Source of the DNA: Gemmatimonadota bacterium
GTDB taxonomy: Bacteria > Gemmatimonadota > Gemmatimonadetes > Longimicrobiales > Gaopeijiaceae
Assembly: GCA_022827345.1 (NCBI GenBank)
Contig: JAJDTB010000024.1
Span: forward strand, 1-64,000
DNA: 64,000 bases
Direction: 5' to 3'
Shown here: positions 11,974-15,829 of the stretch, piece by piece
How the letters are laid out: each line of letters begins with the position of its first letter
Position numbering within the stretch: the first letter of the stretch is position 1
Made by a program: the position numbers and the translations under genes
The notes under the pieces: model-generated
Databases searched by the model: none
What the model saw: only the letters and a program-made list of their open reading frames with translations
What the model was told of the DNA's origin: nothing

Positions 11974-13238
11974 TACGCCGGGCCGGAGTCGTGGTGGCGG
12001 CAACAGTGATTGCGACCGCCGCGTTTGGTGCGGAGAACGCTGCCGCGCAGCTCCTTCTCGTCCCCATGGACCGCAGCCAGTCGAACCACCTCAAGGCCTA
12101 CGGGCTCACCTACCGGGTTCTGGAGCAGGACGGGCGGGCGGAGTGGCTCCTCAACTTTCAGGGCGGCTCGTTTCTGCTGCCGGACACCGAGGGAACGCGC
12201 AGGACGGCGGCGCTGATGGGCGTGACCGTCCAGCCGGTGGGCGCGGCCGACGAGGCGCGCATCCGGGGCATCGTCGCGACATCGAACATGGAGTCGGTGG
12301 TGCTGGAGAAGGCGACGAACATCGCGATCTACACGCCGCCCAACAGCGCGCCGTGGGACGACGCGGTGACGATGGCGCTCGACTACGCCGAGATCCCCTA
12401 CGAGAAGATCTGGGACGACCAGGTGATCGAGGGCGGGCTGGAGGATTTCGAGTGGCTCCACCTCCACCACGAGGACTTTACGGGGCAGTATTCGAAGTTC
12501 TACATCACCTATGCGGGCGCGCCCTGGCTCGAGGAGGAGGTGGCGCGCAACGAGGAGGCGGCGCAGGCGCTCGGATTCGCGAACGTGCCCGCGCTCAAGA
12601 AGGCGGTGAGCTACAGGATCCGCGAGTACGTCGAGAGCGGCGGCTTCCTCTTCGCCATGTGCTCCGCGCCCGAGACGCTGGAGCTCGCGCTGGCGGCCGC
12701 GTCCGTGGACATTGCGGCCGCCTATTCGGACGGCACCCCGCCCGATCCAGACGCCGGCTCCAAGGTGGACTGGGGGCTTGCCATGGCCTTCGCGGATGCC
12801 GAAATCCAGGTGGCCCCGTCGGTGAACGCCTTTTCGGACATCGACGGACACCAGGTCAACACGCCGTGGCGCAAGGAACTCGGGGCGTTCACGCTGTTCG
12901 ACTTCTCCGCCAAGTTCGATCCCGTTCCGGCGATGCTGACGCAGAGCCACGAGTCGGTGCTCCCCGACTTCTACGGGCTGACGACATCCTTCGCTGTCGA
13001 CCGGCTGAAGCCCGGGGTCGTGAAGCTCGGCGTCGAGGGGACGTGGGCCAAGTACATCCACGGCAACCTCGGTGAGGGAACCTGGACCTACTACGGCGGG
13101 CACGATCCGGAGGATCCCGAGCACCAGATAGGCGATCCCCCGACGGACCTGGAACTGCACCCGAATTCTCCGGGCTACCGGCTCATTCTCAACAACGTCC
13201 TGTTCCCCGCGGCGAAGAAGAAGAAGCTGAAGACGTGA
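11970..13238 (+). CDS. Secreted protein of a family often labelled 'asparagine synthetase B'
   Basis: This is a 422-residue protein with a clear signal peptide (cleavage near ENAAA-QLL). The mature start QLLLVPMDRSQSNHLKAYGL and the following FQGGSFLLPD match, as I recall, a secreted family in Bacteroidota and Gemmatimonadota carried in databases under the name asparagine synthetase B. Nothing here resembles the Ntn-type glutaminase Cys2 or the PP-loop of true AsnB, so that name should not be taken as function. ESGGFLFAMCSAPETLELAL near residue 225 looks like an amidotransferase-like nucleophile elbow with a Cys. The C-terminus ends in a Lys-rich tail. It is coupled by ATGA overlap to the TPR gene and by GTGA to the helicase gene. 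Confidence 0.6.
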   Translation: MIRRAGVVVAATVIATAAFGAENAAAQLLLVPMDRSQSNHLKAYGLTYRVLEQDGRAEWLLNFQGGSFLLPDTEGTRRTAALMGVTVQPVGAADEARIRGIVATSNMESVVLEKATNIAIYTPPNSAPWDDAVTMALDYAEIPYEKIWDDQVIEGGLEDFEWLHLHHEDFTGQYSKFYITYAGAPWLEEEVARNEEAAQALGFANVPALKKAVSYRIREYVESGGFLFAMCSAPETLELALAAASVDIAAAYSDGTPPDPDAGSKVDWGLAMAFADAEIQVAPSVNAFSDIDGHQVNTPWRKELGAFTLFDFSAKFDPVPAMLTQSHESVLPDFYGLTTSFAVDRLKPGVVKLGVEGTWAKYIHGNLGEGTWTYYGGHDPEDPEHQIGDPPTDLELHPNSPGYRLILNNVLFPAAKKKKLKT

Positions 13239-15829
13239 CGCCGCTCCCCCTTCGGCTGGCGCCGGAGGCCGCTCGGGTCATCCGCGACGAAGTGACCCGG
13301 GCCGGGGGCCGCGAGGTCTCCTTTCTCGCCGAGGTGACGCGCTTGCGGGTGATCGTGGACCCGCGCGCCGTGGCCCGCGGCAACCGCACGGCCGTGCTCG
13401 CCGCGGCCCGCGACGCGCGCGAGGGCTCGGTCATGATCCACAACCACCCCTCGGGGCTGCTGGAGCCATCCGACGCCGATCTGGCGGTGGCGTCCGGCGT
13501 CTACGAGCGGGGGATCGGGACGGCAATCGTCACGAACGCGGCGGATCGCATCTACGTGGTGGTCGAGCCGCCGGAGCCGCGCCGGATCGAGCCGCTCGAG
13601 CTGGACGAGCTGTCCGGGCTGCTGCGCCCGGAGGGGCCGCTGGCCAGGATGCCCGGCTACGAGGACCGGCGCGGCCAGCGCGAGATGCTCCGGTTCGTCG
13701 GGGAGCGGTTCAACGAGGGAGGGGTTGGGCTGGTGGAGGCGGGAACGGGCACGGGGAAGTCGCTCGCCTACCTGGTGCCGGCGGCGCGCTGGGCGGTGAC
13801 CAACGGCGAGCGGACGATCGTGTCCACCAACACGATCAACCTGCAGGAGCAGCTGGTCCGCAAGGATCTGGAGATCGTGAGCGGGGTGCTGGGGGAGCGG
13901 CTGAAGTGGGCGCTGGTGAAGGGCAGGGGCAACTACATCTCCATCCGGAGGGCGCACCTCGCCGCCGAGTCCGCGCCGAGTCTGTTTGCGGACGACCGCT
14001 CGGAGGAATTGGCGGCGCTCGTCGAGTGGGCCGAGACGACCGAGGACGGCTCGCTGGGGGACCTGTCCTTCACGCCCACGCGGGAGGTGTGGGAGGAGGT
14101 GCGCAGCGAGACCGATGCCTGCCTGCGCGCCAAGTGCCCCTTCTTCCAGCAGTGCCACTACCAGCGGGCGCGCCGGGCGGGAGCCTCGGCCGATCTGGTG
14201 GTCGTCAACCACGCGCTCTTCTTCTCGGACCTCGCGATTCGCATCCTCACCGAGAATTTCAGCGACGGGGCGGTGCTTCCGCCCTACAGGCGCGTGGTCT
14301 TCGACGAGGCGCATCACCTGGAGGATGCGGCCACCCCCCGGCTCGGCGCCGAGACGACGCGAGTCGGGATGTTCCGGGCGCTGGCCCGGCTGGACCGCGG
14401 CGGGAAGGGGATCCTGGCTGCGGTCACGGCCGTACTGAAGGCCGCGCCCAACTCGATCTCGGCCCGGCGCCTGACCGAGCGGATCGGGAAGCGAACCCGC
14501 CCCCTGGCGCGGAGCCTGCGCGACGCATTCACCGCCTTCTTCGACCTCATGGAGCCCTGGGCCGGCGCCAACGCCGACGGGGGCAGCCTGCGCCTGGGGC
14601 GTCCGGCCCGGCCCGATGCCCCCGCCACTCCCGAACCCGCCGACGATGCAGCCATCGGCGAGGCGCTGGAACGCGTTCTGCTCCTCCTGGCGGATCTCCA
14701 GCGTGAACTCGAGGCGCTGGTCGAGCGCCTGGGCGAGGACGAGGAACTCCACTCCGAACTGCAGGGGCGGCTCCTCGATCTGCGCGCGTGCGGAAACCGG
14801 CTCGGCAGGATCGAGCGGGCGCTCCGGCTCTGCCTGCTCCCCGCGACCGGCAAGCTCCCCATGGTGCGGTGGATCGAGTTGCGGCGCTTCGGCAAGCGGG
14901 GCGTGAGGAACCTCGCCCTGTCGGCCGCGCCCGTCGACCTGGGTCCCGTCCTGGCGGAACACCTCTTCGCGAACATCGACACGGGGGTCCTCACCTCGGC
15001 CACCATGGCGGTAGGCGGCGACTTCGGCTACCTGAAGGGGCGCCTGGGGCTCGGCGCGGGCCCCAGGGCGGCCTCGGCGGACATCTTCGCCGACGCCGGC
15101 CCGCTCGAAGGCGGATTGACGGACTGGTCTCCGGAAGACCTCGATGTGGCCGAGACCGTCTACGGTTCGCCCTTCGACCACGCCACCCAGAGCTGCCTCG
15201 CGGTCCCCACCGACCTGCCGCGCCGCGGCGCTTCCGGCGGCGGAGAGTCGTACAACGACGCTACGGCCAGGATCGTGCATGAGATGGCGGAGATCACCGG
15301 CGGCGGCGTCTTCGCCCTCTTCACCTCGTTTGCGGCGCTCCGGGCCGTCGCGGCCAGCCTCCGCAGGCGGGGCGCCGAGGCGCGCTGGCCGCTCTACGTG
15401 CAGGGCGAAGCCGACCGCTCCGCGCTCCTCCAGGGCTTCACCCGCTCCGGATCCGCCCTCCTCCTCGGGACGGCGTCGTTCTGGGAGGGCGTCGACGTCC
15501 CCGGCCGCCCGCTCCGCGCGCTGGTGATTCAGAAACTGCCCTTCCGGGTCCCGACAGAACCCATCACCGAGGCCCGGGTCGAGGCCATGACCGCGCGCGG
15601 CCAGAATCCCTTCTGGGGCCTCATGGTGCCCGATGCGGCGGTGCGGCTCAAGCAGGGGATCGGACGGCTGATCCGCACCCGCACGGACCGGGGCGCGGTC
15701 CTGCTCCTCGACGACCGCCTGCTCACGAAACGATACGGCCGCACCATCCGCGAGGCGCTCCCCCCGATGCCTCTCGTCAGGGGACCGTGGGAAGTGGTGA
15801 GGAGGAGAGTCGCGAAGTTCTACTCGTGA
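13235..15829 (+). CDS. JAMM (RadC-like) domain fused to a DinG/XPD-type helicase
   Basis: This protein has 864 residues. Residues 1-125 form a RadC-like JAMM/MPN module with the metal motif MIHNHPSGLLEPSDAD (His69, His71, Ser79, Asp82). The remainder is a superfamily 2 helicase of the DinG/XPD group: Walker A GTGTGKS near 170, DEAHH near 355, and the C-terminal helicase blocks LLLGTASFWEGVDVPG and GIGRLIRTRTDRG. Such helicases unwind 5'-to-3' and usually carry a 4Fe-4S cluster. Three cysteines are obvious in DACLRAKCPFFQQC, but the expected first one, after KGRGNY, is replaced (KGRGNYISI). The start overlaps the previous stop (GTGA). Inferred role: DNA repair or R-loop removal. Confidence 0.88.
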   Translation: MTPLPLRLAPEAARVIRDEVTRAGGREVSFLAEVTRLRVIVDPRAVARGNRTAVLAAARDAREGSVMIHNHPSGLLEPSDADLAVASGVYERGIGTAIVTNAADRIYVVVEPPEPRRIEPLELDELSGLLRPEGPLARMPGYEDRRGQREMLRFVGERFNEGGVGLVEAGTGTGKSLAYLVPAARWAVTNGERTIVSTNTINLQEQLVRKDLEIVSGVLGERLKWALVKGRGNYISIRRAHLAAESAPSLFADDRSEELAALVEWAETTEDGSLGDLSFTPTREVWEEVRSETDACLRAKCPFFQQCHYQRARRAGASADLVVVNHALFFSDLAIRILTENFSDGAVLPPYRRVVFDEAHHLEDAATPRLGAETTRVGMFRALARLDRGGKGILAAVTAVLKAAPNSISARRLTERIGKRTRPLARSLRDAFTAFFDLMEPWAGANADGGSLRLGRPARPDAPATPEPADDAAIGEALERVLLLLADLQRELEALVERLGEDEELHSELQGRLLDLRACGNRLGRIERALRLCLLPATGKLPMVRWIELRRFGKRGVRNLALSAAPVDLGPVLAEHLFANIDTGVLTSATMAVGGDFGYLKGRLGLGAGPRAASADIFADAGPLEGGLTDWSPEDLDVAETVYGSPFDHATQSCLAVPTDLPRRGASGGGESYNDATARIVHEMAEITGGGVFALFTSFAALRAVAASLRRRGAEARWPLYVQGEADRSALLQGFTRSGSALLLGTASFWEGVDVPGRPLRALVIQKLPFRVPTEPITEARVEAMTARGQNPFWGLMVPDAAVRLKQGIGRLIRTRTDRGAVLLLDDRLLTKRYGRTIREALPPMPLVRGPWEVVRRRVAKFYS

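Follow-up and report, generated by a model that had tools for sequence, protein, structure and literature searches.

In the aligned sequences of a single bacterial order, the first of the four iron-sulfur (Fe-S) ligand cysteines of a DinG-type helicase is replaced by serine, and the replacement is fixed in that order and confined to it. The helicase lies at 13235-15829 of the window, by which we mean the whole 64,000-nucleotide stretch analysed here (positions 1 to 64,000, forward strand, of contig JAJDTB010000024.1 in GenBank assembly GCA_022827345.1, a Gemmatimonadota genome of the order Longimicrobiales and family Gaopeijiaceae). The open reading frame joins an N-terminal RadC-type JAMM domain to a DinG/YoaA/XPD helicase. 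Such RadC-helicase fusions are already known; what is new is the variant Fe-S site shared by the whole order. The sequence findings are firm, and the chemistry of the cluster is a prediction. In the literature searched we found neither a DNA helicase with a serine-ligated cluster nor this order-wide variant.

The window protein reads KGRGNYIS236IRR where relatives read KGRxNYLC. A preliminary description of this DNA had listed three obvious Fe-S cysteines, and these are present as C296, C301 and C307, all carried by CLRAKCPFFQQC. It had also stated that the usual first cysteine is absent (NYISI); no cysteine stands there, but the description passed over Ser236, which is a fixed replacement throughout the order. 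The features of the site are as follows.

13919..14194, plus strand: Fe-S domain region, residues 229-320 (approximate), aligned to Escherichia coli DinG and relatives
13940..13942, plus strand: S236, serine at the first Fe-S ligand position, codon TCC
14120..14122, plus strand: C296, second ligand position, invariant
14135..14137, plus strand: C301, third ligand position, invariant
14153..14155, plus strand: C307, fourth ligand position, invariant; spacing C296-X4-C301-X5-C307

To cover the order, 154 genomes were searched and 143 matched in the motor and Fe-S part. The Fe-S stretch was read in 142 of these, the remaining one (G430) ending before the site; one of the 142 rows is cut off after C296 and another begins after position 236 and reads CCC. 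Position 236 was serine in 141/141 readable genomes, some of them single-contig assemblies, and all four positions read S-C-C-C in each of the 140 genomes where they could be read together, with C296, C301 and C307 unchanged throughout the order. The same serine in every readable genome excludes a sequencing accident, and an assembly or frame error behind the missing cysteine was ruled out because many independent assemblies agree. The window's genome does not lose Fe-S cysteines generally, since two EndoIII/MutY-type Fe-S motifs encoded there keep four cysteines. Outside the order, C-C-C-C was found in 47/47 rows of three sister families and in 31/31 rows of Hydrogenedentota (locus L049 and its duplicate L143 counted apart). 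These relatives are about 42-48% identical to the window protein. Sister families f4-f6 also carry KGW instead of KGR near the first Fe-S cysteine in all 47 rows, the arginine being present in 50/50 rows of the order and in 31/31 of Hydrogenedentota.

A tree of 227 rows, built without the trait's own columns and omitting the distant loci L050 and L111-L114 together with rows that had too little sequence in the columns used, needed a single C-to-S change. Over the 24.8 substitutions per site below that change, serine was kept in 149/149 rows, some of which duplicate another record of the same genome. An earlier tree of 133 rows had left an open fork, with two changes counted and one still possible. 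Ser236 is encoded by TCN in 142 rows and by AGY in 7; the codon set switched four times, each time ending in serine. Such a switch takes two base changes or passes through a Thr or Cys intermediate. Because every switch ended in serine, the codons give a strong sign of selection for Ser236 itself, which says nothing of the role that the serine plays.

We then considered whether another residue could stand in for the lost ligand. The preliminary description had held that a nearby fourth cysteine would remove the anomaly; judged by conservation, no cysteine other than C296, C301 and C307 is order-wide, the best columns in 50 rows of the order being C29 (44%) and C533 (42%), and a fourth cysteine elsewhere was therefore rejected as ligand. 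The protein departs from the four-cysteine pattern of XPD/DinG in being SCCC with no compensating conserved cysteine. Ser291, which is serine in the order and alanine in the sister families, was rejected as a new partner ligand, since 27 of the 31 Hydrogenedentota rows with CCCC also have serine there and the residue is thus ancestral. R231 is likewise ancestral, being arginine in 31/31 Hydrogenedentota rows. As compensating changes, Q310 is derived (49/50 rows) but glutamine is unlikely as a ligand, and I237 does not vary in those 50 rows but changes to Val and Leu in places in the wider order. Of the side chains in the Fe-S region that are both invariant and newly derived, S236 was left as the only one capable of acting as an oxygen ligand.

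We give an even chance to the reading that a cluster, most likely [4Fe-4S], is held by C296, C301 and C307 with Ser236 as the fourth ligand. Published work is cited here and below by PMC number and from parts of each paper. DinG lineages described as cluster-less, such as ExoDinG of Bacillales and CasDinG, keep one cysteine or none at the site, which is then termed pseudo-FeS (Cheng 2025, PMC11981726); the window protein, with three, falls outside that description, and we count the comparison of cysteine numbers as pointing to a retained cluster. The auxiliary [4Fe-4S] cluster of lipoyl synthase is bound by CX4CX5C together with Ser308 (PMC13232139) and would, by analogy, be a natural precedent for ligation by Ser236.

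Several observations weigh on the other side. In archaeal XPD, helicase activity is abolished by serine at any of three ligand positions, this one among them; the cluster is reported to be lost when any one of three of the four ligands, again including this one, is changed, while translocation on single-stranded DNA stays (PMC2435149). DinG of Staphylococcus aureus also aligns a serine (DYIS) with the first ligand place, and it still unwinds DNA without a cluster (PMC12345164); the serine of the window protein therefore need not be a ligand. Together with the cluster-free CasDinG, the S. aureus protein shows that the fold can work without a cluster (PMC12345164). The neighbouring I237 and R238-R239 are conserved as well, so the serine could be kept for contact with DNA.

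One alternative is that the three cysteines alone bind a cluster, which would be either [3Fe-4S] or a [4Fe-4S] whose open iron takes up water or a ligand from outside, and that Ser236 provides a hydrogen bond or a DNA contact. Clusters held by three cysteines are common, and a functional 3Fe-4S cluster has been proposed for an XPD variant that carries serine at the second ligand position. However, the serine-only record over the whole tree below the change would need a separate second role for the residue, and we regard this explanation as unlikely, though worth keeping in mind. The proposal for XPD comes from the study of archaeal mutants (PMC2435149).

A second alternative, which we judge rather improbable, is that the cluster is gone and the three cysteines persist because they serve folding or through inertia, leaving a pseudo-FeS domain like that of S. 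aureus DinG or CasDinG. It would fit the loss of helicase function caused by the laboratory Cys1-to-Ser change in archaeal XPD (PMC2435149), the unwinding of DNA by cluster-free DinG proteins (PMC12345164) and the aligned serine of S. aureus DinG. It is at odds with three cysteines that stay unchanged in 140/140 fully readable genomes of the order and with the single cysteine or none of the cluster-less groups (PMC11981726). Less probable still is a zinc site made of the three cysteines with serine or water: zinc has been raised as a possibility for the Fe-S domains of DinG-like proteins (Cheng 2025, PMC11981726), but the spacing and surroundings of the cysteines match those of E. coli DinG, and C168, C173 and C179 of YoaA have the same spacing.

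Returning to the serine-ligated cluster, we tentatively propose, at somewhat less than even confidence, that the order's repair helicase runs on a selection-fixed, serine-ligated [4Fe-4S] cluster, that the change from Cys1 to serine is tolerated or even useful (e.g., through a lower potential and an exchangeable iron that permit redox or ligand sensing), and that the JAMM head can be dropped. On the even-chance reading given above, the window protein is the DinG/YoaA-class DNA helicase of its phylum, presumably of 5'-3' polarity, in which Ser236 would take the place of the ancestral cysteine as the fourth ligand. A serine ligand would make the corner iron more weakly held, lower in potential and perhaps exchangeable, while the Fe-S domain would still shape the path of the DNA and the motor would still load onto single strands and move along them where forks have stalled or DNA is damaged. 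The JAMM head in front of the motor may act as an accessory metal hydrolase that cuts a peptide bond or a nucleic acid met on DNA.

The remaining features of the gene are listed below.

13235..15829, plus strand: RadC-like DinG, 864 amino acids plus stop, with a GTG start and no internal stop
13235..13567, plus strand: JAMM/RadC domain, residues 1-111, from AlphaFold2 and structure matches
13313..13315, plus strand: E27 in GREVSF, upstream catalytic glutamate of the JAMM domain, nearly invariant
13439..13480, plus strand: JAMM metal site HNHPSGLLEPSDAD, residues 69-82, with H69, H71, S79 and D82
13757..13759, plus strand: K175, Walker A lysine, invariant
14303..14314, plus strand: DEAH box, residues 357-360
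15278..15766, plus strand: Helicase_C_2, residues 682-844

The complete JAMM motif claimed for the N-terminus was borne out by HNHPSGLLEPSDAD and E27, which we take to be the predicted general base by its role in JAMM enzymes. The JAMM/MPN+ pattern is complete (E, HxH, x7, S, x2, D) and sits in a JAMM fold. Pfam RadC (PF04002) scored 26.1 bits on the isolated domain against a cut-off of 22.1 bits, as the preliminary description expected of a true JAMM domain, and 22.1 bits on the whole protein, exactly at the cut-off; the profile also matched 116 of 118 aligned relatives. Predicted alone by AlphaFold2 with 118 rows, the domain reached a predicted local distance difference test (pLDDT) score of 89.0, and its best Foldseek match was RadC of Chlorobium tepidum (2qlc). 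VIA matches included Rpn11 (4ocl_E, Z 10.3, root-mean-square deviation (rmsd) 2.5, 103 residues) and bacterial BubCD (9ea4, Z 10.2, rmsd 2.8, 112 residues), tied in Z. The whole protein, predicted with 101 rows, had a mean pLDDT of 89.5 and contained the motor, Fe-S and arch domain fold. Its helicase part was best matched by E. coli DinG (6fws/6fwr; 6fws_B, Z 37.2, rmsd 6.9 over 636 residues). The NCBIfam YoaA profile (NF053712) scored 503.2 bits, below its curated cut-off of 680. Profile and structure matches together upheld the assignment to DinG/XPD-like helicases.

The JAMM residues EHHSD were kept in 132 of 138 judged genomes of the order and lost in 6; among four other genomes read for the domain, the stretch is missing from three and the fourth appears to be frame-shifted. 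The six losses fall in four genera (loci L052, L072, L073, L074, L231 and L239). No JAMM domain is recognisable in G069 and G035, and the domain is kept with its site lost in G131 and in the genus of G109, G121 and G429. All six genomes are no larger than 2.9 Mb and retain the motor stretch and SCCC, so the helicase can be kept without JAMM activity. A link between JAMM loss and small genome size is suggestive (6 lost, 132 kept, Mann-Whitney p 1.8e-4, kinship uncorrected). A Fusobacterium relative is also without HxH: the RadC-like DinG of locus L111, a chromosome-sized record of Fusobacterium vincentii filed as a 2.1 Mb plasmid, has CCCC and no JAMM histidines.

For the activity of the domain, a nuclease is nearly as probable as not: the protein would then be a helicase-nuclease like ExoDinG and EndoDinG, which carry nucleases at the same N-terminal place (Cheng 2025, PMC11981726), rather than a peptidase. 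Against this, the structural neighbours other than RadC (Rpn11, CSN5, PfJAMM1 and BubCD) are ubiquitin-like protein peptidases or their kin, and RadC-like DinG was unstudied by 2025 according to passages of the same paper (PMC11981726).

That paper names the 'RadC-like DinG' subgroup, models a member from Desulfuromonas soudanensis, states that no research on the subgroup exists so far and reports that HolC is absent in organisms with RadC-like DinG (Cheng 2025, PMC11981726). A 2017 paper cites RadC fusions to DinG/RAD3 helicases in arguing that RadC acts on nucleic acids (PMC5512222). When the architecture was sought across Gemmatimonadota and other phyla, as the preliminary description had recommended, the window protein was matched in 167 of 200 sampled Gemmatimonadota genomes and in 62 of 68 genomes of Hydrogenedentota, the phylum of locus L049 (titled Candidatus Hydrogenedentota). 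RadC-like DinG is the usual DinG of both phyla. The physical link of RadC to a helicase, which had been put forward as informative, says little alone because the fusion is known and is their normal DinG. In Verrucomicrobiota, the phylum of L050, 2 of 145 genomes matched the N-terminal 135 amino acids, weakly. The 33 sampled Gemmatimonadota genomes without a match at 1e-10, many of one family (f7), may lack DinG. Locus L043, titled Vicinamibacteraceae (Acidobacteriota), is 67-90% identical to the window over the helicase and its neighbours and is probably a mislabelled bin.

The window's own genome has a single match to the protein, which is the sole Fe-S-type XPD/DinG helicase found there, and also encodes a stand-alone RadC (139.9 bits). 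A redundant second DinG was rejected, as the only other Helicase_C_2 match is a protein of 840 amino acids in which no Fe-S motif was seen. This protein (L253, contig C32) seems to be a distinct helicase that may belong to a defence system. A mobile origin was likewise rejected, phage and plasmid searches having given only hits below 60% identity.

The upstream gene (11970-13238, plus strand) overlaps the GTG start of the helicase by four bases with its stop. It adjoins RadC-like DinG in 71 of 76 Gemmatimonadota loci, where its identity is about 55-98%, and has no Pfam, NCBIfam or PDB match. A downstream gene for a FAH-type hydrolase stands beside the helicase in 58 of the 76 loci, some of which are cut by contig ends. 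For both genes this is conserved order only, and neither suggests a role in repair.

The roles of the XPD-family cluster in structure, redox sensing and unwinding have so far been studied through destructive mutants in which Cys is changed to Ser. In the window's order nature has fixed such a change at one ligand with the other three kept, and the CCCC relatives are matched controls. If a cluster is bound, the protein would be a DNA helicase with a serine-ligated cluster, and substitutions at S236 could tell its structural and redox roles apart. A natural comparison for the function of the RadC-type domain is offered by the lineages in which the JAMM site was lost and the helicase kept.

Among known systems, the closest is RadC-like DinG as described by Cheng 2025 (PMC11981726), which shares with the window protein an N-terminal RadC-like domain with E, H, H and D (here E27, H69, H71 and D82) on a DinG motor with Fe-S and arch domains. 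Its metal-coordinating residues are called fully conserved, whereas Ser236 occupies the first Fe-S ligand position in the window's order. The paper describes single replacements of Fe-S cysteines by H, S or D, with CCHC and CCCS as examples (PMC11981726), and SCCC is not named among them in passages of that source. E. coli YoaA and DinG share the motor, Fe-S and arch domains, but they have no JAMM domain and keep four cysteines (C108, C168, C173 and C179 in YoaA). The archaeal XPD mutants concern the same ligand position and the same residue, with helicase activity abrogated (PMC2435149); unlike them, the window's order has fixed the change naturally and keeps the remainder of the helicase intact. 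Lipoyl synthase combines CX4CX5C with a serine as the window protein does, but it is an unrelated radical SAM enzyme whose serine lies in a C-terminal motif and whose cluster takes part in sulfur attachment (PMC13232139). S. aureus ExoDinG resembles the window protein in its serine at the first ligand place and in having an N-terminal enzyme domain, and differs in lacking a cluster (PMC12345164), in having no cysteines aligned to C2-C4 and in carrying a 3'-5' exonuclease instead of JAMM.

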